This document shows positions 10,410 through 52,835 of a stretch of DNA of 64,000 nucleotides, one piece after another. Both the position numbers and the translations under genes were made by a program. This DNA comes from Candidatus Zhuqueibacterota bacterium (GTDB lineage: Bacteria > Zhuqueibacterota > Zhuqueibacteria > Zhuqueibacterales > Geothermadaptataceae): NCBI GenBank assembly GCA_030950365.1, contig JAUZRQ010000009.1, positions 62,001 to 126,000 on the forward strand, given 5' to 3'. Position 1 is the stretch's first letter; every line of letters begins with the position of its first letter. Under the pieces are notes generated by a model. It was not told the DNA's origin and did no database searches. It worked only from the letters and a program-made list of their open reading frames with translations.

Positions 10410-10416
10410 CCTCTTT

Positions 10417-11115
10417 TCAAAAGCCCGATCCCGCCTCACAGCCCGGATTCACCAACATGATCTCCGAAAGTGGCTTTTTACGAATGTCCGGCACGCGCGC
10501 CCCCGTGGCTGGATAGCCCACAGGTAGCAGCAAAAACGGTTTCTCATTGATAGGCCGCCGCAGAATCTCACGCAAAAAGCCCATCGGGCTGGGCGTGTGC
10601 GTGACTGTGACCAGCCCGGCGTTGTGAATAGCAGCGATCAGCATTCCTGCGGCGATGCCCGCGGACTCGTTCACGTAATAGTGCTTGATACGGCGGCCCT
10701 GATCATCCAGGCCGTAGTCGATTTTGAACATCACGATCAGCACCGGCGCAATTTCGAGAAACGGCTTTTGCCAGTTGGTGCCCAGCGGCTGCAGGTCTTG
10801 CAGCCAGTCCTCGGGAAACCGGCGCTGGTAATTTTCGCGCTCCTCCTTTTCAGCCGCTTCGCGAATGCGCCGTTTGAGTTCGGGATCGGTTACGACCACA
10901 AATCGCCAGGGTTGTTTGTTGGCCCCTGAGGGCGCCGTCCCGGCGGTGCGGATGATCGTTTCGATCAGATCCATAGGCACGGGATCGGGCGAGAAATCGC
11001 GCACACTGCGGCGTTTTTGCATGAGTTGCAAAAACGCCTGCGCCCGCGCCCGTTGTATGTCGAGATCGAGCCGCTCGAATGCGAGCGGGATGGTGGCTAT
11101 ATTGGCATCGTGCAT
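10417..11115 (-). CDS. Nitroreductase-family FMN enzyme
   Basis: 232 aa, a single nitroreductase domain. RRSVRDFSPDPVP near residue 35 and GTAPSGANKQPWRFVVV near residue 62 are the FMN-binding motifs, and GLVTVTHTPSPM near residue 170 with a C-terminal RRPINEKPFLLLPVGYPA completes the fold. The longer N-terminus and middle lid (REAAEKEERENYQRRFPEDWLQ) are like the iodotyrosine deiodinase/BluB-type subgroup rather than NfsA, so dehalogenation or another flavin reduction is possible; this is by pattern. It lies 22 bases downstream of the SpoIID-like gene on the same strand, so the two are likely cotranscribed. Confidence 0.85.
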   Translation of the reverse strand: MHDANIATIPLAFERLDLDIQRARAQAFLQLMQKRRSVRDFSPDPVPMDLIETIIRTAGTAPSGANKQPWRFVVVTDPELKRRIREAAEKEERENYQRRFPEDWLQDLQPLGTNWQKPFLEIAPVLIVMFKIDYGLDDQGRRIKHYYVNESAGIAAGMLIAAIHNAGLVTVTHTPSPMGFLREILRRPINEKPFLLLPVGYPATGARVPDIRKKPLSEIMLVNPGCEAGSGF

Positions 11116-14279: not shown

Positions 14280-15497
14280 ATGCAAACAGAACCCATCCAG
14301 ATTTTTCGACGCGGCCTGGGCTTAAAACATCAAGTAGCCAGCCTTCTGGATCAAGATTACGCCAGTCAGGTGGTGGATTTCTTCAAGGTAAATGATTACC
14401 GCCTTCAGATTGGACAGCTTACCCTGTTTCTGGCACGCGAATTTGGATTTTGTTATGGCGTGGATCGGGCGGTGGATTATGCTTATCAAACACGCAAAAA
14501 ATTTCCTGATCGTCGCATTTTCCTTACCGGCGAAATCATTCACAATCCACATGTAAACCGAAAAATGCTGGATATGGGCATCCACTTTTTAACCGGACAG
14601 TACAGCGACGGCATCTCGTATGACGACTTGGAGAAAGACGATGTGGTTATTTTGCCTGCATTTGGCGTGACGCAGCAGGAATTGGAATGGCTTAAGGCCA
14701 AAGGGTGTGTACTCGTGGATACCACTTGCGGTTCAGTGCTGAATGTCTGGAAACGCGTGGAGCAGTATGCCCGGGATGGCTTCACGGCCATCATTCACGG
14801 CAAGTACTGGCACGAAGAAACCCGCGCCACCAGCTCGCAGGCCACCAAATATCCCGGCGGCCATTATCTTGTGGTGTTGGATATGGCCGAAACTGAGCTG
14901 GTGTGCGATTACATCGGCGGCCGCTGGAACAAAGCCGACTTTTTCCGCAAGTTCGAAAAGGCGGTCTCCCCTGGTTTCGATCCTGATGTACACCTTCAAA
15001 AGGTTGGGCTGGCCAACCAGACCACCATGCTCTCCAGCGAATCCTTGGCCATTGCCGAGCGCATTCGCGTGGAAATGGAACGCAAATATGGCCAAGACTA
15101 CCTGGACGAGCATTTTCGCACCTTTGATACCATCTGTAGCGCCACACAGGACCGCCAGGATGCGGTGCTGGAGCTGGTGAAAAACGAGCATCTCGATCTG
15201 ATGCTCATCATTGGTGGCTACAATTCCAGCAATACCAATCATCTTGCCGAGATTGCTCAGAACTACACCCGCGCCTACCACATCGATGACGCGGCCTGCC
15301 TGGTGAGCCCGGATGAGCTGCGCTACAAGCCCATCCATAAGGACTGTGAAAAAATTGCGCACCACTGGCTTCCCGCTGGAGCGGCGCGCATCGGCCTGAC
15401 CGCCGGCGCCTCCACCCCGAACAACAAAATCGGCGAAGTCGTCGCACGGTTGGCCGAATTTCAGGGCGTATCGCTCAAAGATGTCCTTGAGCAATAG
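14280..15497 (+). CDS. ispH: 4-hydroxy-3-methylbut-2-enyl diphosphate reductase, cyanobacterial/plant type
   Basis: 405 aa from ATG 14280; the promoter position argues against the GTG at 14241. IspH is the last enzyme of the MEP isoprenoid pathway, an Fe-S enzyme that reduces HMBPP to IPP and DMAPP. The three cluster cysteines are visible in FGFCYGVDRAV, VDTTCGSVLNVW and TICSATQDRQ. IIHNPHVN, HEETRATSSQ and GGYNSSNTNHL are substrate-site motifs. The extra ~40 N-terminal residues (RGLGLKHQVASLLDQDY) and the insert between the second and third cysteines match the longer cyanobacterial/plant IspH and not the ~315-aa E. coli type. Single gene, flanked by unrelated genes. Confidence 0.93.
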   Translation: MQTEPIQIFRRGLGLKHQVASLLDQDYASQVVDFFKVNDYRLQIGQLTLFLAREFGFCYGVDRAVDYAYQTRKKFPDRRIFLTGEIIHNPHVNRKMLDMGIHFLTGQYSDGISYDDLEKDDVVILPAFGVTQQELEWLKAKGCVLVDTTCGSVLNVWKRVEQYARDGFTAIIHGKYWHEETRATSSQATKYPGGHYLVVLDMAETELVCDYIGGRWNKADFFRKFEKAVSPGFDPDVHLQKVGLANQTTMLSSESLAIAERIRVEMERKYGQDYLDEHFRTFDTICSATQDRQDAVLELVKNEHLDLMLIIGGYNSSNTNHLAEIAQNYTRAYHIDDAACLVSPDELRYKPIHKDCEKIAHHWLPAGAARIGLTAGASTPNNKIGEVVARLAEFQGVSLKDVLEQ

Positions 15498-15583
15498 CGT
15501 GCTCCCTCCTCTGGCATAAATATTGCCAAATTTTCACAGCATTGATCCGGCAGTTTCCATTCTCATCATCACAGGAGGTTCCC

Positions 15584-16468
15584 ATGCGGCTCAAAATGAC
15601 CCACTACGGCATTCTTGCATTTGTCTTTTTCATTTCCGGTTGCAACATTTTCAGTCCATTCAAACCCGAAACCACCTCTCCTACGGTTCTACTGGAACAG
15701 GGCAAGGCCGCGCTACAGGCCGGGGATCTTGACAAAGCTCTGGAATATCTGGATAAAGCCAAAGAAGCCGATCCCGAGAATCCGCAGATCCGCTATTTCC
15801 ACGCCGTCGCCACCGTGCGGATCAATAATCTTGATTTTCAGGATTTTATCGATGCGTTTCAATCCGAAGTCGCCAACCAGAATTTTTCGCCTGGCATTCA
15901 AATTTACAGTGACGCATTTTCCGGCGGTGTGGATACGCTTTTCACCTTGCCCGAAAGTGAGCTGCGCCGTATTATCGAAGCCTTCTGGATCGTGCAGGAT
16001 GATCTCGAGCCGGTGGTGCAGGCCATTCTCGATGGCCGATTGACCGCGGCCAATTTTGCCCACATCGATGATGTGCTTTTGAGTAGCGCCGTGGCCAGCA
16101 CCGTCTCTGCCCTGATCTTCCTCCTTGATGACGACGGCGAAGGTCCGGAGTTCCGTCTGGATACCCGCGTTCTACTGAAAAAGGCCGAAGAAGCGTATGC
16201 GCTGGTGATCAATGGCGATCCCATGGCGGGTTTCAAATCCATTGAGGAAGAAGTCAAATATCGCATTCAGCGGCAATGGCCTGGATTACAAAAAGGTCTG
16301 ACACATTTGTATTTATATTACACCTGGACACAACTTGGCGCGTTGCCTGATACGGTGCCGGTTCCCCCGCAACCCATGCCAACCAATTTGAACCACTCCC
16401 TGGCAGCCGAAATCTACAAAATTGCCTATCAGGGCGTGACTGCCCTCTGGCAGTATCTCCGTAATTGA
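15584..16468 (+). CDS. TPR-containing lipoprotein
   Basis: 294 aa from ATG 15584, chosen for the strong AGGAGG at 15573-15578 and the lipoprotein signal that follows (ILAFVFFISGC, lipobox Cys ~18). Residues ~32-75 (LLEQGKAALQAGDLDKALEYLDKAKEADPENPQIRYF) fit one to two TPR units. The rest is largely helical with no recognised domain. Probably anchored in the outer membrane. The gene precedes the PorV-like outer-membrane protein by 237 bases on the same strand, and a partner role there is possible but not shown. Confidence 0.75.
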   Translation: MRLKMTHYGILAFVFFISGCNIFSPFKPETTSPTVLLEQGKAALQAGDLDKALEYLDKAKEADPENPQIRYFHAVATVRINNLDFQDFIDAFQSEVANQNFSPGIQIYSDAFSGGVDTLFTLPESELRRIIEAFWIVQDDLEPVVQAILDGRLTAANFAHIDDVLLSSAVASTVSALIFLLDDDGEGPEFRLDTRVLLKKAEEAYALVINGDPMAGFKSIEEEVKYRIQRQWPGLQKGLTHLYLYYTWTQLGALPDTVPVPPQPMPTNLNHSLAAEIYKIAYQGVTALWQYLRN

Positions 16469-37177: not shown

Positions 37178-38644
37178 ATGGCTCAAATGTTCATCAACGG
37201 CGAATGGACCGACGCCGTATCCGGTGAGGTCTATGAAGTCCGTAATCCGGCCAATGGTGAGGTGGTGGACACCGCCCCCCTGGCTGGCGAAGCCGATGTC
37301 GAGAAGGCTGTAGCCGCAGCCAAAGCGGCCTTCCCCCTCTGGGCGAAAACCCCCGCCGACGAACGCGCAAAAATCCTGCGCAAGGGCATTGAGCTCATTG
37401 AAGCCCATGCCAAAGAGATTCAGACGCTGCTGAGCGCCGAACAGGGCAAGCCGGTCTTCGAAGCCGCCGGCGAGCTCCATCATCTTTTGCACGGCCTCGA
37501 ATTTTATGCGGGCCTGGCCAGCAAAATTCGCGGCGTGCAGACCCCCCTTCCCCCCACCCTTGGCAAAAACGTGTATGGCATGATCCTGCGCCGGCCGGTG
37601 GGTGTCAGCGTCGGGATCGTCCCGTGGAACTTCCCCCTCACCCTCATGGGCACCAAAGTCGGCCCGGCCCTGATCGCCGGGTGTCCCATTATCATCAAGC
37701 CGGCATCAACCACCCCTCTGGCCACATTGAAAATCATCGGTCTGCTCAACGAAGCCGGGCTGCCGCCGGGCGTTTTGAGCGGCGTGACCGGCCGCGGCAG
37801 TCAGGTGGGCGAAAAGCTGATTTCGCATCCCGATGTGCGGCGCGTGGCCCTTACCGGCAGCAGCGATACCGGCCGCCGGGTCATGGAAATCGCCGGTCCG
37901 GATTTCAAGCGCATCACTCTGGAGCTGGGCGGCTCGGATCCGATGATCGTCTGCCCCGACGCGGACATCCGCAAGGCCATCAATGGTGCGATGATCGGCC
38001 GTTTCTGGAACGCCGGCCAGGCCTGTCTGGCGGTGAAGCGGTTGTATCTGTTCGAAGAAATTTACGACGAGTTCATGGACGGCCTGCTGAAAAAAGTCGC
38101 CAACTACCAGCTCGGCGATCCGGCCACGCGGCCCGAAAAGCCGTTCATCCGCATGGGCCCGCTGCACACGGCCTATCAGCGGGAAGAAGTCGAGATGCAA
38201 CTCGAAGACGCCGTGGAAAAAGGCGCAAAGGTGCTCATCGGTGGCAAACGGCCGGACGATGCGGCGCTGGCCAACGGCTTTTTCTTCGAACCCACTGTGG
38301 TGGTGGATGTGCCGGAAGACAGCAAGCTGGTCACCGAAGAAGTCTTCGGCCCGGTGTTGCCGGTCTGGAAGGTGAAGTCACTGGAAGAAGCCATCGAAAA
38401 GGCCAACCAGAGCCGCTGGGGGCTGGGATCGTCGATCTGGACCAAAAACCTGGTCTGGGCCAACCGCGCCATTCAGGAGATCGAAGCCGGCATGACCTGG
38501 GTCAACCAGATTCACTACGGCTACGACGAGCTGCCGTTCGGGGGCGTCAAAGCGTCTGGAATCGGCCACGAGCACGGCCCGGAAGCCGTGGATTACTATC
38601 TCGAAAACAAGAGCGCGGTCATCGGCGGCCTGGATTGGGAATAG
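37178..38644 (+). CDS. Aldehyde dehydrogenase (first in phenylacetyl-CoA cluster)
   Basis: 488 aa, one complete ALDH domain. VGIVPWNFPLTLMGTKVGPALIAGC and KPASTTPLATL bind NAD(P); ITLELGGSDPMIV holds the general-base Glu and NAGQACLAVKR holds the catalytic Cys (~285). EEVFGPVLPV and the C-terminal WVNQIHYGYDELPFGGVKASGIGHEHG complete the fold. In the phenylacetate pathway the PaaZ dehydrogenase domain oxidises an open-chain semialdehyde; this enzyme could replace that half, since no fused PaaZ is present. That role is inferred from position alone. A close paralogue lies at 47460. Confidence 0.9.
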   Translation: MAQMFINGEWTDAVSGEVYEVRNPANGEVVDTAPLAGEADVEKAVAAAKAAFPLWAKTPADERAKILRKGIELIEAHAKEIQTLLSAEQGKPVFEAAGELHHLLHGLEFYAGLASKIRGVQTPLPPTLGKNVYGMILRRPVGVSVGIVPWNFPLTLMGTKVGPALIAGCPIIIKPASTTPLATLKIIGLLNEAGLPPGVLSGVTGRGSQVGEKLISHPDVRRVALTGSSDTGRRVMEIAGPDFKRITLELGGSDPMIVCPDADIRKAINGAMIGRFWNAGQACLAVKRLYLFEEIYDEFMDGLLKKVANYQLGDPATRPEKPFIRMGPLHTAYQREEVEMQLEDAVEKGAKVLIGGKRPDDAALANGFFFEPTVVVDVPEDSKLVTEEVFGPVLPVWKVKSLEEAIEKANQSRWGLGSSIWTKNLVWANRAIQEIEAGMTWVNQIHYGYDELPFGGVKASGIGHEHGPEAVDYYLENKSAVIGGLDWE

Positions 38645-38695
38645 ACGCAATCGACATCACATTCATTCATTCATTTCAACAGGAGGAAAATCTCA

Positions 38696-39478
38696 ATGGC
38701 TGATGCCGTTGTCACGTACAGTCGAACCGAATCCATTGGATACATCACCCTCAATCGCCCACCAGCCAACAGTTACGAAATCGGCTTCATGCGCGATCTG
38801 GATGCTGCCATCGATGCGGCCAATGCCGATGCCGAAGCCAAAGCCGTGATTGTGAAAAGCGCGCTGGACAAGTTTTTCTCCGCCGGCGCGGATATTAAGG
38901 CGTTCATGGCCAACAGCACGCCGCAAAACATGGAAATGGTGCAGGTGGCACATGACGCGCTGCGGAAAATAGCCACCAGTTCTAAAATTTTCATCGCGGC
39001 CATCAACGGCCACGCGCTGGGCGGCGGCATGGAAATCGCCCTCGCCTGCGATTTGCGCTTTGCCGCCGAGGGGAATTACCGCCTCGGCCTGCCGGAAGCC
39101 ACCCTGGGGCTTTTGCCCGGCAACGGCGGCACCCAGCGGTTGCCGCGGCTGATCGGAATCAACAAAGCGCTGGAGCTGATGATTACCGGCGAAACGCTGG
39201 TACCGCAGCAGGCGCTGGAGCTGGGCATGGTCAACAGGCTCTTTGCGGCGGAGTCCCTTCTGGAAGAAACCGAGAAGTACGCGCAGCGACTGGCCTCCGG
39301 CGCGACCATGGCGGTGGCCTACATCAAGCGCGCGGTGTACGAAGGCATCGAAAAGCCGCTGGATGAGGCGCTGGCGCTGGAACGCGAACTGATTGAACCG
39401 CTGTTCAATTCCGCCGACGCCCAGGAAGGCATCGCCGCGTTTGTGGAAAAGCGCAAGCCGAATTTTCAAGGAAAATAA
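38696..39478 (+). CDS. Enoyl-CoA hydratase/isomerase, hydratase type
   Basis: 260 aa, full-length crotonase. The oxyanion-hole and catalytic features are visible: FFSAGADIKAFM, AINGHALGGGMEIALACDLRFAAEG and LPEATLGLLPGNGGTQRLPRL. Both catalytic glutamates of a true hydratase appear (the E of GGMEIAL and of LPEATLG). Probably a beta-oxidation-like step on the ring-opened CoA ester. AGGAGGAAA precedes the ATG. A 262-base gap full of repeat units separates it from paaA. Confidence 0.9.
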   Translation: MADAVVTYSRTESIGYITLNRPPANSYEIGFMRDLDAAIDAANADAEAKAVIVKSALDKFFSAGADIKAFMANSTPQNMEMVQVAHDALRKIATSSKIFIAAINGHALGGGMEIALACDLRFAAEGNYRLGLPEATLGLLPGNGGTQRLPRLIGINKALELMITGETLVPQQALELGMVNRLFAAESLLEETEKYAQRLASGATMAVAYIKRAVYEGIEKPLDEALALERELIEPLFNSADAQEGIAAFVEKRKPNFQGK

Positions 39479-39490
39479 TTTTTCCATTTT

Positions 39491-39712
39491 CTCCCTGAGG
39501 CGCTGAGGCCGCGGAGACGTTTTTGAGTTCATTCGCTGTCCACTTATTTTATTATTGAAATCGTCGTGGCGGATCATTCGGTGTTCGGCGGCCACCGTCT
39601 GGCGGCTGTTGAAAGCCGAAAACGTAGCCTGTGATTTAAGGCAAATGGCAACTCGTGCTGGCAATAAGCCAGGAAAGCCTTCTCTCTGCACGCCCTGCGC
39701 CTCTGCGAGAAC
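39491..39712. repeat. Dispersed repeat units in front of paaA
   Basis: CTCCCTGAGGCGCTGAGGCCG (39491-39511) and CGCCCTGCGCCTCTGCGAGA (39691-39710) are inverted variants of the GCAGAGGCGC unit, set 220 bases apart as at 10259-10409. They interrupt an otherwise tightly packed gene cluster. Confidence 0.45.
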
Positions 39713-39740
39713 CCCAATTCAAAACACGCGGAGAATTGCT

Positions 39741-40685
39741 ATGGCGCTTGTAACCGAAGAAGCCTTAAAACAGCGGCTTGCCGAGGGCAAGCTGGTCGAG
39801 ACCAAAGAGCAGATGAGCCCGCGGTACCTCGAGGGCATCATCCGGATTCTAACGGTCTCGGCGGACACGGAGCTCATCAGCGCTCCGGCCTATTACCTCG
39901 CCGCGCAGGACGCCCCCAACATCAACGCCTTTGTCTCAGCCATGGGCATCATTCAGGATGAACTCGGCCATGCCCACATCGCCTACCGTATTCTAGAAGA
40001 CCTCGGCGTCGATAAAAACAAGCTCATTTACGAACGCAAACCGGAAGAGTTCAAATATCCGTACGCGTTCGATGTGCCGCTGGAGACCTGGGTGGAGCTG
40101 GTCGTGGCCAATGCGTTTTACGACCGCGCCGGCTTTGTGCTGCTGGGCGATGTGTTCAAGCACGGCAAGTTCGGCCCCTGGAAGCGCGCGCTGGCCAAGG
40201 TAGATAAAGAAGAAAACTTCCACCTGCGGCACGGTGAGATGTGGATGCGCAAACTCGTGCTGCAGCCCGACGGTCGCGAAAAGCTGCAGCGCGCCGTGGA
40301 TTGGATGTTCCCGCTTACCGTGGAATGGTTCGGCCTGCCGGACAATTTAAAACGACATACCGAACAAATCGAATATGGCTTCAAGGGCAGCAGTAACGAC
40401 GAGCTGCGACAACAATGGCTGAGCACCGCCGTTCCGCTGTGCGAGGAACTCGGCCTCGAAGTGCCGGCGCATTACGATGCCAGCACTGGCAAGTACGTGC
40501 TGGACTTTCCGTTCCCCTCCCGCTTTGTGGCCGAAGAAAAGCGCTGGCTATTTGAAGAGGGCCCGATTAGCTGGGATGAAGTGCTCGAACGCTGGAAAGC
40601 GCGCGGTCCGAAAAACAAGGAATTCGTCGAATCGGTGCAGCGCGGCTACCGCGATTTTCTGCAAACGGAGAAACTGGCATCGTGA
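39741..40685 (+). CDS. paaA: 1,2-phenylacetyl-CoA epoxidase, catalytic subunit A
   Basis: 314 aa from ATG 39741 (GGAG eight bases upstream); the frame is open a further 62 codons into a repeat. PaaA holds the diiron site that epoxidises the phenylacetyl-CoA ring with O2. Carboxylate-bridged diiron motifs are visible: the first E in VSADTELISAP, ExxH in IIQDELGHAHIAY (~75), the E of NAFYDRAG region, and ExxH in VDKEENFHLRHGEMW (~160). Length agrees with E. coli PaaA (~309 aa). Overlaps the next gene by four bases. Confidence 0.95.
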   Translation: MALVTEEALKQRLAEGKLVETKEQMSPRYLEGIIRILTVSADTELISAPAYYLAAQDAPNINAFVSAMGIIQDELGHAHIAYRILEDLGVDKNKLIYERKPEEFKYPYAFDVPLETWVELVVANAFYDRAGFVLLGDVFKHGKFGPWKRALAKVDKEENFHLRHGEMWMRKLVLQPDGREKLQRAVDWMFPLTVEWFGLPDNLKRHTEQIEYGFKGSSNDELRQQWLSTAVPLCEELGLEVPAHYDASTGKYVLDFPFPSRFVAEEKRWLFEEGPISWDEVLERWKARGPKNKEFVESVQRGYRDFLQTEKLAS

Positions 40686-41053
40686 AAAAATTGCCGGTCA
40701 TCCAACAACCGCCGCCACCGGATTTCGATGTGCAATCCACGTCCGAGCCCGAACGCTCGCTGTGGCAGGCGCTGAAAACCGTACTGGACCCCGAGTACCC
40801 CATCAGCGTGGTGGATATGGGGCTGATTTACGGCCTTGAAAAGCACGACGGCGAGGTGCGGGTTAAGCTGACCTTCACCGCCATGGGCTGTCCATGCATG
40901 GAGATGATCATCGACGACATCCGCACCTGCTTGAAAAAGCAGCCCGGCATTGAAACCGTTCACATCGAAATCGTCTGGGATCCGCCCTGGACGCGGGCGC
41001 GCTTGTCTCAGGCGGCTATCGAACAATTCAGACAATGGGGCATTACCGTATGA
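40682..41053 (+). CDS. paaD: PaaD-like MIP18/DUF59 domain protein (N-terminal half of PaaD)
   Basis: 123 aa from GTG 40682, overlapping the paaA stop. LWQALKTVLDPEYPISVVDMGLIYGLEKHDGEVRVKLTFTAMGCPCMEMIIDDIRTCL is the MIP18 (DUF59) domain with its CPxxE-type motif CPCMEM; IVWDPPWTRARLSQAA closes it. The E. coli PaaD has this domain followed by a C-terminal zinc ribbon in one chain. Here the chain stops after the first domain, and a separate gene at 42220 encodes the zinc ribbon. Probably helps mature the PaaABC oxygenase. Stop overlaps the paaB start. Confidence 0.9.
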   Translation: MKKLPVIQQPPPPDFDVQSTSEPERSLWQALKTVLDPEYPISVVDMGLIYGLEKHDGEVRVKLTFTAMGCPCMEMIIDDIRTCLKKQPGIETVHIEIVWDPPWTRARLSQAAIEQFRQWGITV

Positions 41054-41262
41054 GTGACACCAATACCACTCCCGCCGGTGAAGTGTACGAAGTCTTCGCG
41101 CGGATCAAAAAAGACGATCCGCACCGGCACATCGGCAGCGTCATTGCGCCGGAAGCCGAACTGGCGAAAATGTATGCGTTTACATTGTATAATGAATGGA
41201 ATTGGGACCACATGTTCATTATCAGGCGCAGCGATATTCACACCCTGATTGCACCCAAATAA
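41050..41262 (+). CDS. paaB: 1,2-phenylacetyl-CoA epoxidase subunit B
   Basis: 70 aa from ATG 41050, overlapping the paaD stop as ATGA. EVYEVFARIKKDDPHRHIGSVIAPEAELAKMYAF and the later FIIRRSDIHTL match PaaB (Y-x-V-F-x-R and HRHxGS near the N-terminus). The E. coli protein is ~95 aa, so this copy is short at the C-terminus. PaaB bridges PaaAC units in the epoxidase. A second, more divergent PaaB-like protein is encoded 14 bases downstream. Confidence 0.88.
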   Translation: MSDTNTTPAGEVYEVFARIKKDDPHRHIGSVIAPEAELAKMYAFTLYNEWNWDHMFIIRRSDIHTLIAPK

Positions 41263-41276
41263 TCCGGGAACCGATC

Positions 41277-41471
41277 ATGAAAACGTATCACATTTTCGGC
41301 CGCAAGGCCTACGCCGAGCCGCTGACGTTCGTTCAGCAAATTCAGGCAGAAACGGAAAAGGACCTCGATCAGGCAGTGGATGCGCTGAAACGGGAACCGG
41401 ACTGGGTGGAGCTGGTCGCCATTGCCGAATCGGACATGATCGAGGTTCTATTTGAAGGAGCGGAAGCATGA
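41277..41471 (+). CDS. Small PaaB-like protein
   Basis: 64 aa from ATG 41277. The plan repeats PaaB: YHIFGRKAYAEPL at the start (Y-x-x-F-x-R), AETEKDLDQAV in the middle, and VELVAIAESDMIEVL near the end, aligned with FIIRRSDIHTL. Overall identity is low. It lies between paaB and paaC and overlaps paaC at its stop (ATGA), so it is translated with the epoxidase genes. It may be a second bridging subunit or a PaaB paralogue that replaces the missing C-terminal part of PaaB. Confidence 0.75.
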   Translation: MKTYHIFGRKAYAEPLTFVQQIQAETEKDLDQAVDALKREPDWVELVAIAESDMIEVLFEGAEA

Positions 41472-42223
41472 CAGCCATCGCGAAGAAAGCATTTCAATCG
41501 ATTCAGGAATTGGACAAAAAAACGTCCTCTGCCCTGCTGCAGTTTGGCCTGAGTCTCGCCGATACCAAGCATTTTCTCGGCCGCCGGATTTCCGAGTGGG
41601 TCACCGGTGCTCCAACCATGGAGGCCTCGGTGGCGGCGGCCAACATCACGCAGGACGAGCTGGGACACGCGCGCAGTCTGTTCGCCATGCTGCGCGATTT
41701 CCCGGGCGCTCCCGATGAATTGAAAAACGAAACCGAGTTTGCTCGCAAACGCCACTTCGCGCCGTCCATCCTCGACACCTCATTCGCTTCCTGGTTCGAG
41801 GTGATCGCCGCGCTGTTTTTGATCGACCGGGCATTGACGCAAATTTTCCGAAGCGGCAGGCAATCCACCTACTATCCGCTCAGGCAGCGCATCGCTAAAA
41901 TTTTGCAAGAAGAACGCTTTCACGTGATCTACGCTGATGGCTGGGTGAAAACCATTGCCGCGCGCACCGATGGTGCTTCCGCGAAATTGCAGCAGGCCAT
42001 CGACCGGTTCTGGCCTGTGTGTGTGGATTGGTTCGGGCCGCACACGCAGTCAGACTTTGCGCCACTGCTGGAAGCCGGCATTTTCGCCGAAGAACCGGCC
42101 GCCTGCTTTGAGCAGTGGCGGAACGCCGTCAGCGAGGTGCTGCACGCCAATGGCCTGCACGTGCCGGATTACGCTCCGGACTGGCAGCAATGGCAGGCAG
42201 AGCGGCGCGAGGTGCGGCCGTGA
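41468..42223 (+). CDS. paaC: 1,2-phenylacetyl-CoA epoxidase, structural subunit C
   Basis: 251 aa, matching PaaC length (~248). FGLSLADTKHFLGRRISEWVTGAPTMEASVAAANITQDELGHARSLFAML is the N-terminal ferritin-like half; ILQEERFHVIYADGWVKTI is the second. Both ExxH pairs (DELGH and EERFH) are present, whereas in the E. coli PaaC that I recall the first is lost. PaaC normally serves as the structural, non-catalytic partner of PaaA. Its stop overlaps the GTG of the next gene. Confidence 0.9.
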   Translation: MTAIAKKAFQSIQELDKKTSSALLQFGLSLADTKHFLGRRISEWVTGAPTMEASVAAANITQDELGHARSLFAMLRDFPGAPDELKNETEFARKRHFAPSILDTSFASWFEVIAALFLIDRALTQIFRSGRQSTYYPLRQRIAKILQEERFHVIYADGWVKTIAARTDGASAKLQQAIDRFWPVCVDWFGPHTQSDFAPLLEAGIFAEEPAACFEQWRNAVSEVLHANGLHVPDYAPDWQQWQAERREVRP

Positions 42224-42426
42224 GCCAACCACAAAAGCCCAACGGAGCGTCCGATTCGGCTCGTCCGTCCTGCGCTTATTGCGGATCCACCGATACCGAG
42301 TTAATTTCCCTGTTTGGACAGACCCTGATGGGATCGCAGTATTACTGCAAAACCTGCCACACGGTTTTCGAAGCCGTGCGCTGGACGGATTCGCTGGATC
42401 ACGATGAAAATGGAGAGCCAAGATGA
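42220..42426 (+). CDS. PaaD C-terminal zinc-ribbon protein as a separate gene
   Basis: 68 aa from GTG 42220, overlapping the paaC stop. CAYCGSTDTELISLFGQTLMGSQYYCKTCHTVFEAVR has two C-x-x-C pairs and the F-G-x-T-x-x-x-x-x-Y pattern of the C-terminal part of PaaD. The family protein normally joins this ribbon to the DUF59 domain, which here is encoded three genes upstream at 40682. The frame runs on upstream inside paaC without a start, so the short start is preferred. Stop overlaps the next crotonase start. Confidence 0.88.
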   Translation: MSQPQKPNGASDSARPSCAYCGSTDTELISLFGQTLMGSQYYCKTCHTVFEAVRWTDSLDHDENGEPR

Positions 42427-43205
42427 CGTTCCAGACGCTTCAATTCGAAGTCAAAAACCAGATCGCCACGATCACGCTGAACCGCCCGGATGTGCTCAAC
42501 GCGGTCAACATGGATATGCGGCAGGAGCTGCTGCAACTGACCGACCGGCTGTTTTTCGATGACGACATCCGCGTGATTGTTTTCACCGGCGCCGGGCGGG
42601 CGTTTTCCGCCGGCGCGGACATCGGCCATTTTGAAAACGACTGGCACGGGCCGCGATTCCGCGCCTTCAGCCGCAAAATGGCCAGCTTTTTCGACGATAT
42701 CGAAGCGGTGGAAAAGCCAGTGATCGCAGCCATCAATGGGCCGGCCACCGGCATGGGCCTCGATCTGGCCCTCGCCTGCGATATCCGCTTTGCCGCAGAA
42801 GAGGCAACGCTCGGCTTTCGCCAGAACGCCATCGGCCTGATTCCCAGTCTGGGAGGCTGCGTGCGGTTCGTACGGCTGATCGGCCTCGGCCGCGCCAAAG
42901 AGTACATTTTCACCGGTAAAATGCTGACCGCCGAAGAGGCGCAGCGCATCGGGCTGGTCAACCGCCTGTATCCCGGCGAGACCCTGCTGGAAGAGACGCA
43001 CCGGTTTGCCGAGAAGCTACTCGATAAAGCGCCGCAATCGCTGGGACTGGCCAAGCGGCTGTTGAACACGGTGGTAGATATCGACCATTATTCCGGAATC
43101 ATTCTCGAAGACCTGGCACAGAGCATTCTCATGAACACGGAAGATCACCGCGAGGGGCTGCAGGCCTTTCGCGAGAAACGCAAACCCCGATTCAAAGGAC
43201 GATGA
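42423..43205 (+). CDS. Crotonase-family protein without both hydratase glutamates
   Basis: 260 aa. Crotonase fold: AFSAGADIGHFE (oxyanion loop), AINGPATGMGLDLALACDIRFAAEE and FRQNAIGLIPSLGG. At the two catalytic positions this copy has Asp (GLDLAL) and Gln/Asn (FRQNAIG) instead of Glu, so it is unlikely to be a plain hydratase. PaaG, the ring-1,2-epoxyphenylacetyl-CoA isomerase, is the crotonase expected at this place in the pathway; its catalytic Asp is in a different motif, so equivalence is not proven. Overlaps both neighbours by four bases. Confidence 0.85.
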   Translation: MTFQTLQFEVKNQIATITLNRPDVLNAVNMDMRQELLQLTDRLFFDDDIRVIVFTGAGRAFSAGADIGHFENDWHGPRFRAFSRKMASFFDDIEAVEKPVIAAINGPATGMGLDLALACDIRFAAEEATLGFRQNAIGLIPSLGGCVRFVRLIGLGRAKEYIFTGKMLTAEEAQRIGLVNRLYPGETLLEETHRFAEKLLDKAPQSLGLAKRLLNTVVDIDHYSGIILEDLAQSILMNTEDHREGLQAFREKRKPRFKGR

Positions 43206-44749
43206 ACATCCCCGATATTCGCACGGTCACCGTTATCGGTGCCGGCACCATGGGCTCCGGCATTGCCCTCACCGCACTGCGCGCCGGGTTTGAGGTTCGG
43301 TTATACGACATCAGCCAGGCTATGCTCAGCCGTGCGTCGGAGTATATCCAACATCATCTGCAGCGCAAAAATCAAGAGGACCGCTTTGCGGCGCTGAGCC
43401 TGATCGATAAGTTGGAAGCGTTTTCAGGCTCGGATGTGGTGATCGAGGCTGCGCCGGAGAAACTGGATATAAAAAAAACGCTTTTTCGCGATATTTCGGA
43501 GATTTGTCCCCCACCCGCCTTGCTGGTAAGCAACACCAGCACCCTTCCCATCACCCTGCTGGCGGCCTCGGCGGAAGCGCCGGAGCGCGTCGGCGGGATG
43601 CATTTTTTCAATCCCGCGCCGGTTTTGCCGCTGGTGGAAGTCATCCGCGCGGTGCAAACCTCGGAAACGGCCTTTCAGCGCATGCTGGGTTTTGCGCGGT
43701 CCCTCGGCAAAACCCCGGTGGCGGTCAATGACACGCCGGGATTTATCGTGAACCGGGTGGCGCGGCCGTTTTACGGGGAGGCGCTGAAGCTGCTCGCCGA
43801 AGGCGCGGCATCGCACAGCGATATCGACGCGATTATGGAAGGCATCGGTTTCCGCATGGGACCATTCCGGCTGATGGACCTCATCGGCATCGATATCAAT
43901 TTCACCGCCATGAAATCGATGTACGAGCAGACCTTCTTTGAGCCCCGCTACCGTCCGAGTTTGATTCAGCAGCAGAAAATCCATGCCGGCCACCTGGGCC
44001 GCAAAACCGGCCGCGGATTCTATAATTATGCAGAGACGGATGATGTTGCCGAACCGCCGCAGGATTCCACCGAAACACCTGCTTTCAGCGGAAAAGTGCT
44101 CTTGCTCGGCGAAGACTGGGCGCCGGATTTGCGGGCCAGCCTGCAAGCAGCGGGGATGAACGTAACCGGCGAACCGGCGGACGATGTGGCCGTCGCTATT
44201 GTTGCTGCATCCCATGAAAGAGATTTGCAAAAGCACGTTATTGTGTTGGATCAGCGCCTTTCAGAATGGACTCCTCTCCTTGTACAGTGCTATGACAAGC
44301 CGCTGTCCGAAATCGCATCATGGATGGAGCATCCGCAGCGGCTGGCCGGACTGGATGGCCTGTTTTTTGCAACCAGTTCCCGCCCCACCCTGGCGCGACA
44401 CGCGAAATGGAACCATGAACTCGAACCGTTGGTTGAAGCGTTCATGGCCGCGCTGCAAAAGCAACCGGTGTGGATTCAGGAAACGCCGGGACTGGTGGCG
44501 TCGCGCATTCTGTGTATGCTGATCAACGAAGCCGCTTTCGCCGCGCTGGAAAAGGTAGCCAATCCCGAGACCATTGATCTGGCCATGAAGCTTGGCGTGA
44601 ATTATCCGAAAGGCCTGTTCGAATGGGGCGCGGCGCTGGGCTATTCCCGCGTGCTGGCCATTTTGCAGCATTTGTATGACGAATACGGCGAGGACCGCTA
44701 CCGGCCGTGCGTTTATCTGAAACAACTCGTGCGCATGAAGAACGATTAA
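43202..44749 (+). CDS. 3-hydroxyacyl-CoA dehydrogenase, two-domain type
   Basis: 515 aa. The N-terminal Rossmann fold (VTVIGAGTMGSGIALTALRAGFEVRLYD), the catalytic His region MHFFNPAPVLPLVEVI and FIVNRVARPFYGEALKLLAEG are typical. Residues ~190-280 are the first C-terminal dehydrogenase domain; ~410-515 (ETPGLVASRILCMLINEAAFAALEKVA ... NYPKGLFEWG) form a second copy, with a divergent linker between (~290-400). The layout matches PaaH-type enzymes that oxidise the 3-hydroxyadipyl-CoA intermediate. Overlaps the preceding crotonase by four bases. Likely last gene of the core cluster. Confidence 0.9.
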   Translation: MNIPDIRTVTVIGAGTMGSGIALTALRAGFEVRLYDISQAMLSRASEYIQHHLQRKNQEDRFAALSLIDKLEAFSGSDVVIEAAPEKLDIKKTLFRDISEICPPPALLVSNTSTLPITLLAASAEAPERVGGMHFFNPAPVLPLVEVIRAVQTSETAFQRMLGFARSLGKTPVAVNDTPGFIVNRVARPFYGEALKLLAEGAASHSDIDAIMEGIGFRMGPFRLMDLIGIDINFTAMKSMYEQTFFEPRYRPSLIQQQKIHAGHLGRKTGRGFYNYAETDDVAEPPQDSTETPAFSGKVLLLGEDWAPDLRASLQAAGMNVTGEPADDVAVAIVAASHERDLQKHVIVLDQRLSEWTPLLVQCYDKPLSEIASWMEHPQRLAGLDGLFFATSSRPTLARHAKWNHELEPLVEAFMAALQKQPVWIQETPGLVASRILCMLINEAAFAALEKVANPETIDLAMKLGVNYPKGLFEWGAALGYSRVLAILQHLYDEYGEDRYRPCVYLKQLVRMKND

Positions 44750-47459: not shown

Positions 47460-48899
47460 ATGGCAAAGATGTTCGTTGCTGGAGAGTGGATCGATTCGGA
47501 GTCGGGCGACGTCGATGAGATTCGCAATCCGGCCACCGGAGAATTGGTGGATACCGTGCCCCGCGGCACCCGCAAAGATGCGGAGATGGCCATCCAGGCG
47601 GCGGCCGATGCATTTCCGGCCTGGGCCGATGTGCCATTCTCGCAGCGCGGCGAAATCCTGTTCAACGCGGCGCGCCTGATCAAAGACAACGAAAAAGAAC
47701 TGGCCCGCCTGCTGACGCAGGAACAGGGCAAACCGCTGCGCGAGAGCGTGCGCGAAATCCGCCGCTTTGTGCACACCATCGAGCACTATGCGGGACTGGG
47801 CAAAAACGTCCGTGGCGGCTATGTGCCGCTGCTGGACCGCGGCAAATACGGCCGGATCATCAAACTACCGCTGGGTGTGTGCGGCGCTATCGTGCCGTGG
47901 AACTTCCCGGTGGCGCTGATGGGCAACAAGATTGCGCCCGGATTGCTGGCCGGCAACACGTTTGTGGTCAAGCCGGCAGGCACCACCCCCCTCACTGCTT
48001 TGCGCACCATGGAGCTGTTTTATCAGGCCGGATTGCCGCGCGGCGTCATGAACATGATCACCGGGCCCGGCGGCACGGTGGGCCAGGAAATCATCGAAAA
48101 TCCGACGGTGCGCAAAATCGGCTTCACCGGTTCCACGGCCACCGGCAAACGCGTGATGGAACTGGCCGCCAAAGAGCTGAAAAAGGTCACGCTGGAGCTG
48201 GGCGGCAGCGATCCGATGATCGTGTGCGACGACGCCAACATCGACCGCGCGGTCAGCGCCGCCTCGGTGGGCCGGTTTTATAACTGTGGCCAGGCCTGCC
48301 TGGCGGTCAAGCGGCTGTACCTGTTCGAATCCATCGCCGATGAGTTCATCGAAAAGCTGGTAGCCAAGGTGCAAAAATTGAAAGTCGGCAACGGCCTCGA
48401 GGAAGGCGCCATGCTGGGCCCGCTGCACACGGCCTACCAGCGCGAGGAAATCGAAGGCCAGGTGCAGGATGCCCTCGACCGCGGCGCGAAAGTGCTGGTG
48501 GGCGGCAAGCGGCCCGAGGGCGCGGAATATGAGCGCGGCTTCTTCTACTTGCCCACGTTGCTCACTGAAGTGGACGAGGCCTCGCGCGTGATCCGCGAAG
48601 AGGTCTTTGGCCCGGTTCTGCCGATCATCCGGGTGAAGGATTTCGATGAGGCCATCGAAAAGGCCAACGATTCCATTTACGGCCTCGGTTCGTCCATCTG
48701 GACACGCAGTCTGCGCCGGGCGGAAATCGCCGCGGAAAAACTACAGGCCGGTTACACCTGGATCAACTCAGCGCAGATCATCTACGACGAATTGCCGTTC
48801 GGCGGCGTGAAGCAAAGCGGCCTCGGCAAGGAGCACGGTTACGAGGCGTTGGAGCACTATCTCGAAACCAAGGCGGTCGTCGTAGCGGCCGATGTGTGA
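47460..48899 (+). CDS. Aldehyde dehydrogenase, second copy
   Basis: 479 aa, full ALDH domain. GAIVPWNFPVALMGNKIAPGLLAGNTFVVKPAGTTPLTAL, VTLELGGSDPMIVCDDANI (Glu) and NCGQACLAVKRLYLF (Cys, ~279) share the same variants as the enzyme at 37178, including GQACLAVKR, so the two probably arose by duplication. GGAGAGAGCT precedes the ATG. May oxidise a related aldehyde; the substrate is not readable. Confidence 0.9.
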   Translation: MAKMFVAGEWIDSESGDVDEIRNPATGELVDTVPRGTRKDAEMAIQAAADAFPAWADVPFSQRGEILFNAARLIKDNEKELARLLTQEQGKPLRESVREIRRFVHTIEHYAGLGKNVRGGYVPLLDRGKYGRIIKLPLGVCGAIVPWNFPVALMGNKIAPGLLAGNTFVVKPAGTTPLTALRTMELFYQAGLPRGVMNMITGPGGTVGQEIIENPTVRKIGFTGSTATGKRVMELAAKELKKVTLELGGSDPMIVCDDANIDRAVSAASVGRFYNCGQACLAVKRLYLFESIADEFIEKLVAKVQKLKVGNGLEEGAMLGPLHTAYQREEIEGQVQDALDRGAKVLVGGKRPEGAEYERGFFYLPTLLTEVDEASRVIREEVFGPVLPIIRVKDFDEAIEKANDSIYGLGSSIWTRSLRRAEIAAEKLQAGYTWINSAQIIYDELPFGGVKQSGLGKEHGYEALEHYLETKAVVVAADV

Positions 48900-48928
48900 T
48901 GATGAGGCGTACATGTTAAAAAGCACGA

Positions 48929-48974
48929 ACGGCCGGATGGTGATCTGCCACGAATGGCAGACCCATCCGGCCGT
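48929..48974. terminator. Long hairpin between two convergent genes
   Basis: ACGGCCGGATGG (48929-48940) pairs perfectly with CCATCCGGCCGT (48963-48974); inside, CTGCCA (48945-48950) and TGGCAG (48955-48960) continue the stem with CGAA as the loop. It sits between the ALDH stop and the rpe stop. No T-run follows on the plus strand, so it may act as a bidirectional end or RNA-stabilising element. Confidence 0.55.
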
Positions 48975-49030
48975 ATCGTGTCCGGGGGATGGTGTGGGTC
49001 TTTCCGATTATGGAAGGCCATGCAATACTT

Positions 49031-49789
49031 TTAATCAGCGCCCTGGAACACCCGATCTTCGAAATAGTGTTCCAGCTCGGCGGCGGAGTGCCAGCGGCCG
49101 TTGCCATCGGTGAAGCTGTTTTCGTTCTGGCATTGCGCCAGCATATCCTTGACGGTTCTTGCTGGAGCCGGCGTGCCAAAGATACCTGAACCGGAAACCA
49201 GCACATCGGCGCCAGCGCGCGCCACTTCGGCGATGTTATCCAATTGGATTCCGCCATCGACTCCCACCCGAACCTGAGGCAGTCCCCGCTCATCGAGCAT
49301 CTGCCGCAACTTGCGGATTTTATCCATACTGGCCGGAATGAAGGACTGGCTGCCAAAACCGGGGTTCACGGACATGATCAAGACCAGGTCCACTTCCTGC
49401 ACAATTTCCTCAATGCTACTGAGCGGGGTATGCGGATTAAGCGCCACGCCGGCTTTCACGTTGTGACTGCGGATAGCCGTCAGCGTGCGGTGCAAATGCG
49501 TACAGGCTTCCACATGCACGGTCAGTACATCGGCGCCGGCCTGAACGAAATCGTCGATGTACCGATTGGGATCGGCGATCATCAGATGCACATCCAGCGG
49601 CAGGCGAGTACGCCGGCGCAACGCTCGCACGACTACCGGTCCCATGGTGATGTTGGGCACAAAATGGCCATCCATCACGTCAATGTGCAACCAGCCGGCT
49701 CCGGCCTTTTCTAGCCTCCGAACCTCTTCCGCCAGCCTGGTAAAATCGGCAGACAGAATGGATGGCGCAAGAATGAATGATGGTTTCAT
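49031..49789 (-). CDS. rpe: Ribulose-phosphate 3-epimerase
   Basis: 252 aa, about 30 longer than usual at the C-terminus. APSILSADFTRLAEEV, WLHIDVMDGHFVPNITMGP (metal His and Asp), HLMIADPNRYI, TVHVEACTH, LVLIMSVNPGFGSQSFIP and VRVGVDGGIQ with GADVLVSGSGIF are the full set of family motifs. Interconverts ribulose-5-P and xylulose-5-P in the pentose phosphate and Calvin cycles. The next two remnants upstream on the same strand come from RuBisCO and CbbY genes, which fits an ancestral Calvin cycle locus. Confidence 0.95.
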   Translation of the reverse strand: MKPSFILAPSILSADFTRLAEEVRRLEKAGAGWLHIDVMDGHFVPNITMGPVVVRALRRRTRLPLDVHLMIADPNRYIDDFVQAGADVLTVHVEACTHLHRTLTAIRSHNVKAGVALNPHTPLSSIEEIVQEVDLVLIMSVNPGFGSQSFIPASMDKIRKLRQMLDERGLPQVRVGVDGGIQLDNIAEVARAGADVLVSGSGIFGTPAPARTVKDMLAQCQNENSFTDGNGRWHSAAELEHYFEDRVFQGAD

Positions 49790-49837
49790 CTTTCCCTCCC
49801 AAAATTGAACGATCTATGAATGAAATGCCCTCGTTTT

Positions 49838-50029
49838 TTAATTGCGATTGTCTCGCACTTCTCGAATCAGTTCGGCGTACCGCTTTTCAGCCAATTTTTG
49901 GCGCTGAACGCATTTCAGGATTTCGCGGGCGGATAGAATACCCACAAGCCCCTTCCCTTCCATCACCAACAGATGCCGATGTTCATCCATTTCGAGAAGC
50001 TCCAGAACCTGATGGCATGGCGCATCCGA
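49838..50029 (-). pseudogene. CBS-domain fragment
   Basis: A frame with no proper start runs from the TGA at 50030 to a stop at 49838. It reads SDAPCHQVLELLEMDEHRHLL and goes on VMEGKGLVGILSAREILKCV, then an RQKLAEKRYAELIREVRDN tail. The second half of a CBS domain (HRHLxVxExxxLVGILSxREIL) is plain, but the first half and any other CBS unit are missing. An internal ATG at 49990 would give only 50 aa. It lies 35 bases after the RuBisCO fragment, which suggests a second deletion scar. Probably a gene remnant. Confidence 0.6.
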
Positions 50030-50064
50030 TCAGCATACATGATTGCAGCCTCTCGATTTTGCAG

Positions 50065-50991
50065 TTATTTGGCTTCTGCATCAATAGTGACTATATCCAG
50101 GACATCCACCGTCGGGAAATCAAACCGGATGTCTCTCCAGGCTTCCAAGGCCTGACGCAGTTCCGGCGAATATTTGGCTGCCTTCATGAAAATGTTGGTG
50201 TCTTCATTGAGTAAATCGCGATCCTCGTTGCGGGCCTGGATAACAGCTTGCAATGCAACACGATTGGCCATAGCGCCGGCGGCATTGCCCCAGGGATGTC
50301 CCAGGGTACCACCGCCGAATTGCAGAATGGCATCGTCGCCATAAATGTGTACCAGCTCGGACATGTGCCACATGTGGATACCGCCAGACACCACCTGAAA
50401 ATGCCGGGAATCCCCCCATGGATGATCGAAAAAGATGCCGCGGCTCAAATCGCGGGCCACGAAATTCTTGCGCAACAGATCAGCCATGCCCATGGTTGAA
50501 GCGCGATCGCTTTCCAGTTTACCAACCACGGTATCATTATGGCCATGATCTGCGGTGACAAGTCGGCACCACTTTGCCAGGACTGGCCAGTGAATGCCAT
50601 GGTTGGGCTGCCGGTCGATCACTGCATGCATGACCCATTGGGCGTGCAGGAAAACGTCGTTGTCGCGGCACCATTTGGACAGCGAGGTAAAGGCCGTGAG
50701 GCCGTCGGTCAGGTAGTCCACTATGATCACCGGCGCTTCCAATTCCTTGGCGGCTTCGGCGCGGCGGTACATCTCCTCCATGTTACCGGCCGTGACGTTT
50801 AGAAAATGGACCTGGCGTTCACTGGTTTTGGCTTCGGCTTTTTTCACTGCTTCAATCACGAAACGAAAGCGATCGTACCTGAGCATGAACGGCTGCAAAG
50901 TGATGTTTTCATCGTCTTTGGTGAAATCCAGGCCGCCGCGCAAAGCTTCATACACCATGCGTCCGTAAATTCGTGAAATGCTCGGTTGCAC
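50065..50991 (-). pseudogene. cbbL: C-terminal part of a form I-like RuBisCO large subunit
   Basis: 308-codon frame beginning near form I residue ~178. Long identical stretches to form I remain: [11 protein letters not shown] (carbamate Lys201, Asp203, Glu204), [19 protein letters not shown] (Lys334), SGGIHMWH (Ser379) and [25 protein letters not shown]. The N-terminal ~175 residues, including the substrate Lys175/Lys177, are missing. At the H-I-H-R site (spinach 292-295) it reads H-A-Q-W, so His294 and Arg295 are replaced. The only start is a GTG at 50989-50991 without a ribosome site. It lies in a different frame from the CbbY fragment to which its 5' end is joined. No small-subunit gene follows. 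A broken gene, possibly from a RuBisCO-like protein. Confidence 0.85.
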
Positions 50992-51065
50992 GCCGGTAAA
51001 TAGCCATGCCGCTCCGAATCAGCCAGTGTACCATCGACATCGACAATGACCGCTTTCAGGTTCAT
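50968..51065 (-). pseudogene. cbbY: N-terminal fragment of a CbbY-like HAD phosphatase
   Basis: From ATG 51065 with GGGAGA upstream: [20 protein letters not shown] then [12 protein letters not shown]. This is the CbbY-type beginning, with HAD motif I (D9-V-D11-G-T). Homology stops after about 33 codons, and the DNA runs on into the RuBisCO gene in another frame; the CbbY frame itself ends at 50856. CbbY dephosphorylates xylulose-1,5-bisphosphate, a RuBisCO inhibitor, and is normally found next to RuBisCO genes. The fusion looks like a deletion that removed most of cbbY and the first third of cbbL. Confidence 0.8.
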
Positions 51066-51117
51066 CGTTCTCCCGCATTTTTGTGAAGCAGGTTTAAAAA
51101 TGAATGCCGTTCATTAT

Positions 51118-51132
51118 GCGAAAGCCGTGCCA
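51118..51132 (-). promoter_or_regulatory. Sigma-54 (-24/-12) promoter upstream of cbbY/RuBisCO remnant
   Basis: On the minus strand TGGCACGGCTTTCGC reads from 51132 to 51118: GG and GC are at the strict 10-base gap of sigma-54 promoters, and only one base of TTGC differs. The start site would be near 51106, leaving a ~40-base leader before the ATG at 51065 with its GGGAGA ribosome site. Confidence 0.7.
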
Positions 51133-51217: not shown

Positions 51218-51235
51218 TGTGCCACTGATGACACA
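51218..51235. promoter_or_regulatory. Enhancer-type palindrome, proximal copy
   Basis: TGTGCC-ACTGAT-GACACA, an inverted repeat with 6-base arms (one mismatch) and 6-base spacer, 86-103 bases upstream of the sigma-54 promoter. The same layout occurs at 51339. Confidence 0.6.
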
Positions 51236-51338: not shown

Positions 51339-51356
51339 TGTGTCACAGGAGACACA
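51339..51356. promoter_or_regulatory. Enhancer-type palindrome, distal copy
   Basis: TGTGTC-ACAGGA-GACACA, perfect 6-base arms, 207-224 bases upstream of the sigma-54 promoter. A weaker half-match TGTGTC-GTTAAG-GTTACA follows at 51362-51379. Distance and symmetry suit the upstream sites of a sigma-54 activator, probably the one encoded at 51438. The remaining gap 51066-51437 is AT-rich without a gene. Confidence 0.65.
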
Positions 51357-51437: not shown

Positions 51438-52835
51438 TCAATCTACATCCGCCAGGGCTTTGAATTCGGCCACATTGATGCCGTGTTTCTCCATTAGCCG
51501 GTAAAAAGTGCGCCGGGATACACGCGCGGCTCTGGCTGCGCGGGACACATTGCCATGGCACTGCTGCAGATAGCGCACCAGCGCATCCCGTTCAATCTGG
51601 CTGATCATGCGATGTTTCAAATCGCTCAGACCTTTCAATAACGCCGAGGAATCCAGCCGGGAATTGCCCGAGACGTTTTGCAGGCCCATGGGCAGATGCT
51701 CCACGCGGATCTCATCCATACTGGTCAGCACCAGCGCCCGCTCGATGACATTCTCCAGCTCGCGCAGGTTGCCGGGCCAGTGGTAATTTTTCATGGCCTC
51801 AATCGCTTCGGGCGAGATGCGCTCCACCCGCTTGTTGACTTTGGCCTGCGCCAATTTCAAGAAATGGTACGCCAGCAGTGGAATGTCTTCGAGCCGTTCG
51901 CGCAGCGGTGGCAGATGAATGGTAAAGGTATTCAGCCGGTAGAACAGGTCGGCGCGGAACTCGCCTTTTTCGATGGCCTCTTCCAGTTTCCGGTTAGTAG
52001 CAGCAATGATCCGCACCTTAATTTTTTTAGTGTCATTGTCACCGATGGCGCGGATTTCCCCCGATTGCAAAAACCGCAGCAACTTGGACTGAATTTCCAG
52101 CGGCATGTCGCCGATTTCATCAAGAAACAAAATGCCGTCGTTAGCCAACTCCAGCAGACCAATGCGATCGGACACCGCGCCGGTGAACGCGCCTTTTTTA
52201 TAGCCAAACAGCTCGCTTTCGATGAGCGTCGGGCTGAAGGCCGTGCAATTGACGGTGATCAGTGGGCGATCGCGCCAGGGACTGTTCTTGTGAATCATGC
52301 GCGCCACCCCTTCTTTGCCGGTGCCGCTCTCCCCGCGGATTAGCACTGTGGTGGGCGCGGGCGCAACCCGCCGGATGAGCGAAGCGATTTCCTGCATTTT
52401 CGGCGTTGAGCCGATAATGAACTCCTCTGGCTCATAGCGCGCCATTTCGCGCTGCATGATCTGAAACCGGTCCTCCAGGATTTCTTTTTTCTTGTATTCA
52501 TCCAGGAGCTGCCAGATCATCATCGCGCTCTTGCCACCAATGAGCTCGGTTTGTTCAGCTTTCTCGTGAATGAGCCGCCTTTGCAGCGATTCATCGCCGG
52601 TGACGTTGACAATCAGGTCGAGGTCAAGCTCGCGCAAGAGAGGCTGATATTCACGGGCCACTGGAATGTTCATCTTTTTCGCCAGCGGGATGCCCGGAGC
52701 TCGCAAATTTTTATCCACCACGCCGAGTACTTGAATCGATGGATGGCGCTCGAACACGCGCAAAAGCATCCGGCCGGCACGACCGGCCCCGATCAACAAT
52801 ACTCGTAGATTGAATGTGGGTTGCTCTACGGTCAT
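51438..52835 (-). CDS. Sigma-54-dependent activator with N-terminal Rossmann-type sensor domain
   Basis: 465 aa. Residues ~10-105 form a dinucleotide-binding fold: LRVLLIGAGRAGRMLL (G16-A-G-R-A-G21), VLGVVDKN with the strand-2 Asp, and DLDLIVNVTGD. Residues ~135-375 are the sigma-54 AAA+ domain: Walker A GESGTGKE at 168-175, GAFTGA at 215-220, which contacts sigma-54, and Walker B ILFLDEIGDMP. The C-terminus is a Fis-type HTH (GNVSRAARAARVSRRTFYRLME). Instead of a receiver, PAS or GAF domain, the sensor seems to bind NAD(P) or a related ligand. It lies upstream of the sigma-54 promoter at 51118 and likely acts there, perhaps in response to redox state. Confidence 0.9.
   Translation of the reverse strand: MTVEQPTFNLRVLLIGAGRAGRMLLRVFERHPSIQVLGVVDKNLRAPGIPLAKKMNIPVAREYQPLLRELDLDLIVNVTGDESLQRRLIHEKAEQTELIGGKSAMMIWQLLDEYKKKEILEDRFQIMQREMARYEPEEFIIGSTPKMQEIASLIRRVAPAPTTVLIRGESGTGKEGVARMIHKNSPWRDRPLITVNCTAFSPTLIESELFGYKKGAFTGAVSDRIGLLELANDGILFLDEIGDMPLEIQSKLLRFLQSGEIRAIGDNDTKKIKVRIIAATNRKLEEAIEKGEFRADLFYRLNTFTIHLPPLRERLEDIPLLAYHFLKLAQAKVNKRVERISPEAIEAMKNYHWPGNLRELENVIERALVLTSMDEIRVEHLPMGLQNVSGNSRLDSSALLKGLSDLKHRMISQIERDALVRYLQQCHGNVSRAARAARVSRRTFYRLMEKHGINVAEFKALADVD

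Follow-up and report, generated by a model that had tools for sequence, protein, structure and literature searches.

Probable remains of a form I RuBisCO operon, broken by two deletions beside an intact sigma-54 regulator gene, in a Candidatus Zhuqueibacterota bacterium

We analysed a window of 64,000 nucleotides from the genome of a Candidatus Zhuqueibacterota bacterium (G000; a 136-contig assembly, ~95% complete). Between positions 49031 and 52835 it carries two intact genes, a putative control region and fragments of four further genes, as follows.

51438-52835, minus strand: intact regulator gene encoding an N-terminal Rossmann-like domain (GAGRAG), a sigma-54-interacting AAA+ domain and a Fis-type HTH (Pfam).
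51339-51356, unstranded: palindrome TGTGTCTCCTGTGACACA, putative upstream activator site, one mismatch to TGTGNCAN4TGNCACA (motif match).
51218-51235, unstranded: palindrome TGTGTCATCAGTGGCACA, putative upstream activator site, perfect match to TGTGNCAN4TGNCACA, with a perfect equivalent at the same place in genome G001.
51118-51132, minus strand: putative sigma-54 -24/-12 promoter TGGCACGGCTTTCGC, identical in G001.
50973-51065, minus strand: cbbY relic, the first ~31 codons with the HAD motif DVDGT (tblastn against G001 CbbY residues 1-30, 77% identity, E=2e-10).
50968-50972, minus strand: deletion junction 1, GAATT, a possible microhomology (blastn breakpoints 50968/50970 against 9306/10545 of L100, the G001 operon locus).
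50065-50991, minus strand (ORF as called): cbbL relic, ~300 codons for the C-terminal part of a form I RuBisCO large subunit, in an open frame (PF00016, E=8.6e-93).
50398-50416, minus strand: paired frameshift inside cbbL, a shift of -2 followed by one of -1 when compared with G001 (DNA alignment).
50033-50040, minus strand: cbbS relic, the start codon and one further codon (ATGTAT); the spacer after cbbL is the same as in G001.
50031-50040, minus strand: deletion junction 2 (blastn breakpoints 50031/50064 against L100 2256/8399).
49838-50031, minus strand: CBS2 relic, the last 63 residues of a CBS-domain protein (86% identity to G001 CBS2 residues 82-144).
49031-49789, minus strand: rpe, ribulose-phosphate 3-epimerase, intact, the last gene of the former cluster (TIGR01163, E=9.9e-90).

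A previous reading of this DNA, made from the sequence alone, had described a CbbY start fused out of frame to the C-terminal part of a RuBisCO large subunit, with the change of frame at about 50968-51000. Both observations were borne out by the tblastn and PF00016 matches listed above and by the position of the GAATT junction, across which the two relics lie in different frames. The ORF carrying the cbbY start spans 51065-50856 on the minus strand; its DxDGT motif is kept while the rest of the HAD domain is deleted, and it gave no Pfam match. True cbbL homology begins near 50972 and runs to the natural stop at 50065. It covers positions 31-299 of 299 in PF00016 (RuBisCO_large) and positions 176-467 of the form I model NF003252, through the model end, in agreement with the earlier statement that the first ~175 residues are missing. 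The N-terminal domain PF02788, which supplies part of the active site and is present in G001 cbbL, is missing for the relic, so that no complete RuBisCO active site could be formed. The metal-binding motif is present; the KPKLG loop with the catalytic lysine, upstream of the junction, is present in G001 and missing from the window.

The sequence-only reading had left open the form of the enzyme, and comparison with the RuBisCO forms settled on form I by both model score and phylogeny. NF003252 scored 383 bits, against at most 78 bits for RLP-type models, which rules out a form IV RuBisCO-like identity. Among PDB entries the relic matched best a RuBisCO large subunit, 7qsw, in an alignment that begins at residue 181. 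In a tree the relic fell inside form I and grouped with G001 cbbL (support 100/99), which is adjoined by cbbS, and it was 68% identical to the form I large subunit of two Saprospiraceae (Bacteroidota) MAGs, L020 and L021. The former enzyme was a form I RuBisCO that had a small subunit, and neither form I-prime nor form IV applies.

G001, the only other genome of the same genus that we compared, holds on a single contig the order regulator-cbbY-cbbL-cbbS-prk-tkt-fba-glpX-CBS1-CBS2-rpe, followed by an aldehyde dehydrogenase gene on the opposite strand. Pfam confirmed its cbbY (full HAD), cbbL (491 aa, with PF02788), cbbS, prk, glpX and CBS genes. This is the intact regulator-cbbY-cbbL arrangement for which the earlier reading had suggested searching related genomes. 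Among same-family genomes, G003 and G005 carry cbbL-cbbS-prk with transketolase also found, and RuBisCO is absent altogether from three genomes of genus g2.

By blastn the window matched G001 in four pieces (47769-50031, 50064-50968, 50970-51132 and 51457 onwards), whose partners follow in the same order (1-2256, 8399-9306, 10545-10708 and 11021 onwards), collinear and co-oriented with exactly two gaps. The first gap is a deletion of ~1.24 kb relative to G001, from cbbY codon ~31 to cbbL codon ~187. The second, which the sequence-only reading had missed together with the paired frameshift, is a deletion of ~6.1 kb that removed cbbS from codon 3, the whole of prk, tkt, fba, glpX and CBS1, and CBS2 as far as codon ~81, and fused the first two cbbS codons to the truncated CBS-domain gene. 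The CBS2 relic has an in-frame stop immediately upstream and no start codon. Since G001 holds the intact cluster at the same chromosomal place, the window locus is very probably that cluster after deletions, a G001-type Calvin-Benson-Bassham (CBB) operon of which recent natural loss of carbon fixation left these remains. We put the probability of this account at roughly 0.95.

The earlier reading had proposed either a single deletion or a join of two separate places by the assembler. Deletion of most of cbbY and of the cbbL start was upheld, with two events in place of one. An assembly or binning error that brought together the start of cbbY and the end of cbbL, while these are separate or intact in the real genome, might be thought of given the number of contigs in the source; it is nevertheless very improbable, as flanks and relic pieces line up with G001 in order and orientation across two independent gaps, the missing operon pieces were found nowhere else in the genome, and misjoining cannot create the lost active-site residues and paired frameshift described below. 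Form I operons do move between phyla, with close relatives in Saprospiraceae and Chloroflexota, and the fragment could in principle have been laterally acquired already broken, so that the operon never worked in this lineage. We regard that as extremely unlikely, because the chromosomal place and flanks are those of the intact G001 operon and relic and G001 cbbL group together in the tree.

We next considered the state of the cbbL relic as the remnant of a lost operon. Pairwise dN/dS was uninformative, synonymous sites being near saturation and most of the divergence older than the loss, and outgroup-based tests were therefore taken instead. With G003 as outgroup, the relic had 40 derived amino acid changes and G001 cbbL 4 (relative-rate test, p=1.7e-8), a result with which three further outgroups agreed; the controls, rpe (8 vs 3 and 11 vs 3) and the regulator (12 vs 17), were not significant. 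The end branch of the relic in the tree measured 0.45, that of G001 0.018. At 130 near-invariant positions, defined as at least 97% conserved across 79 other form I-type sequences, the relic was altered at 23, G001 at 4 and G003 at 2. The altered positions include the active-site His-Arg pair in LHxHRAMHA (H294 and R295 in spinach numbering), which alignment to 7qsw and 6uew showed to have become Gln-Trp in the relic; the arginine is present in 79/79 comparison sequences. In the paired frameshift, deletions of two bases and one base ~15 bases apart turn VSMPGIFP into GDSRHFQ, after which the frame is restored. Excess non-synonymous change in the relic was ~0.09 per site, against ~0.7 synonymous changes per site per branch, which suggests that constraint may have lapsed within about the final eighth of the period following the G001 split, a rough figure given the near-saturated synonymous sites.

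The truncated frame extends over 308 codons without a stop, and its -2 and -1 frameshifts cancel, as might be expected of a retained gene expressing a RuBisCO barrel fragment in a new role. However, neutral simulation with 30-50 amino acid changes gave zero stops in 11-26% of runs, so that an open frame is expected by chance at such an age (P=0.11-0.26), and we rejected it as a sign of function. The changes moreover hit conserved and active-site positions, the N-terminal domain needed for a complete active site is gone, the natural start is absent, and the frame lies out of register behind the cbbY start. A retained gene is accordingly a most doubtful explanation of the locus.

Loss of the operon extends to the genome as a whole. 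In the whole ~95%-complete G000 we found no PF02788, no PF00101 (small subunit), either in the window, where the earlier reading had already noted its absence, or elsewhere, and no PF00485 (phosphoribulokinase, present in G001), while control genomes gave the expected matches to each. Searching G000 at the DNA level with the entire G001 operon returned the window pieces and a transketolase paralogue only, with no displaced operon part; an intact second copy in the same strain, which the earlier reading had raised as an alternative origin, was likewise searched for in G000 and not found. From the absence of PF02788, PF00101 and PF00485 we conclude that the Calvin cycle has been lost: the locus is predicted to yield no RuBisCO and the cell to be unable to run the cycle. 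The earlier proposal that the lineage had a carbon-fixation or RuBisCO-like locus and is losing it holds by way of the intact G001 operon, with the refinement that the enzyme was form I and that a whole Calvin module went. A copy in an assembly gap, in the missing ~5% or so, is conceivable; the decay of the window copy would stand regardless. A second rpe lies elsewhere in G000 (contig C97).

A RuBisCO-family protein on contig C20 was examined as a replacement and rejected, being form IV-like, fused to a cupin and just 23% identical to CbbL; G001 also has a second RuBisCO-family match of similar length. The gene (L003, G000:C20:1-12000, positions 2179-3795) encodes 538 aa with a form IV-like RuBisCO domain and a C-terminal cupin domain, and adjoins speD and speE upstream of a nitrous-oxide-reductase-like cluster.

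A [NiFe] hydrogenase is retained in G000 (contig C134) with the same score as that of G001. Retention of this membrane-type enzyme makes it likely that the change of life was from hydrogen-driven mixotrophy to hydrogen-assisted heterotrophy. Elsewhere in the window, translations at 37178-44749 read as aldehyde dehydrogenase, enoyl-CoA hydratase, 3-hydroxyacyl-CoA dehydrogenase and PaaA/PaaC-like genes, which suggests a phenylacetate-type degradation pathway, consistent with heterotrophy.

In the history that we propose, the ancestor would have had a complete CBB operon comprising the regulator, cbbY, form I cbbL and cbbS, prk, tkt, fba, glpX, two CBS genes and rpe. Selection for CO2 fixation would have lapsed following the split from G001, and the operon would then have lost its middle through deletions, of which the first may have used the 5-bp microhomology. 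The surviving rpe may now be all that is driven by the conserved regulator and the sigma-54-type promoter.

The regulator (465 aa) matched Sigma54_activat (E=2.3e-69) and HTH_8 (6.3e-8) and, at its N-terminus, GFO_IDH_MocA (1.4e-4, just under the curated cut-off). It is 87% identical to its G001 orthologue, which likewise lies upstream of cbbY, and its evolution is not accelerated. Two or more palindrome sites at up to two mismatches occurred in 0/3000 shuffled intergenic sequences. Similar palindromes lie upstream of cbbL or cbbY in G003, G005, the same-order genome G007 and one Saprospiraceae genome, and promoter elements resembling that of the window upstream of cbbL in G003, G005 and G007. 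Both the sites and their spacing are kept in several genomes. The G001 locus showed no LysR gene.

We had considered the regulator as exclusive to CBB loci and rejected this, as two same-family genomes of the sister genus g2, G002 and G004, carry it without RuBisCO, and in G003 and G005 it is on a different contig from cbbL. Similar palindromes follow the regulator in both g2 genomes. In G002 (L133, 8982-10421) it precedes, as read from translations, a porin, an acetate-type symporter and two acetyl-CoA synthetases. From these sequence features we infer that a sigma-54 switch of carbon metabolism would govern the CBB operon. A more specific model, which we offer tentatively and at somewhat less than even odds, is that an activator with a Rossmann-like and possibly NAD(P)(H)-sensing domain binds the paired palindromes and activates the CBB operon, in this order as in the Saprospiraceae lineage, acting as a redox switch between CO2 and acetate use that has outlived loss of the operon. 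Like CbbR (LysR-type) regulation, the arrangement places a regulator gene beside the operon; the difference lies in the type of regulator, here a sigma-54 activator that carries a Rossmann-like domain. In the literature searched, nothing was found on the control of cbb operons by sigma-54, and a carbon-fixation switch of such a kind is apparently not described there.

The CBB cluster reported for Zhuqueibacterales (Zhuqueibacterota, former KSB1) comprises form I rbcL, rbcS, PRK, TKT, FBP aldolase, FBPase and RuPE (rpe), and the order also carries a group 1d [NiFe] hydrogenase; in the main text of that study CBB genes are reported as gained by transfer, and no such relic is described (PMC11683472, 2024). 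G001 matches this cluster in gene content and also has a [NiFe] hydrogenase, whereas the window copy has been destroyed by the two deletions. The Saprospiraceae locus L020 has the same order, cbbY-cbbL-cbbS-prk-tkt-fba-glpX-rpe, with a homologous regulator nearby and, unlike the window, is intact.

RuBisCO loci of two further genomes of the order differ from that of G001. In G007 (L104, G007:C1:454001-474000, positions 9329-10726) a form I-like large subunit adjoins prk at a locus with the same regulator, and no small subunit gene was found anywhere in this genome (100% complete, 20 contigs). Its best PDB match was 6ura, the small-subunit-less form I-prime enzyme, and the G007 RuBisCO is form I-prime-like, apparently outside Chloroflexota. 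In G008 (L103, G008:C30:60000-77146, positions 15003-15935) a CbbX-like AAA ATPase gene lies between cbbS and prk, and the form I cbbL shares just 61% identity with G001 cbbL. It seems that the RuBisCOs acquired at regulator-linked loci differ between genera.

As a kind of event the loss is ordinary. It shares with other bacterial operon pseudogenisation by deletion the short-junction deletions, the relaxed constraint on remnants and the survival of promoter and end genes, and differs in nothing of principle; here a whole carbon-fixation module is affected and an intact sister exists in the same genus. Its value is in the clean, recent pair of intact and broken operons and in the surviving control region. 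With the intact sister at hand, one can read directly how events followed on one another, from relaxed selection and deletions to what stays, and conservation of the regulator and promoter suggests a mode of Calvin cycle control that has apparently gone unstudied. An automatic RuBisCO match in such a genome, at E about 1e-92, does not mean autotrophy, and the relic tempers the view of Zhuqueibacterales as only gaining carbon fixation by transfer.
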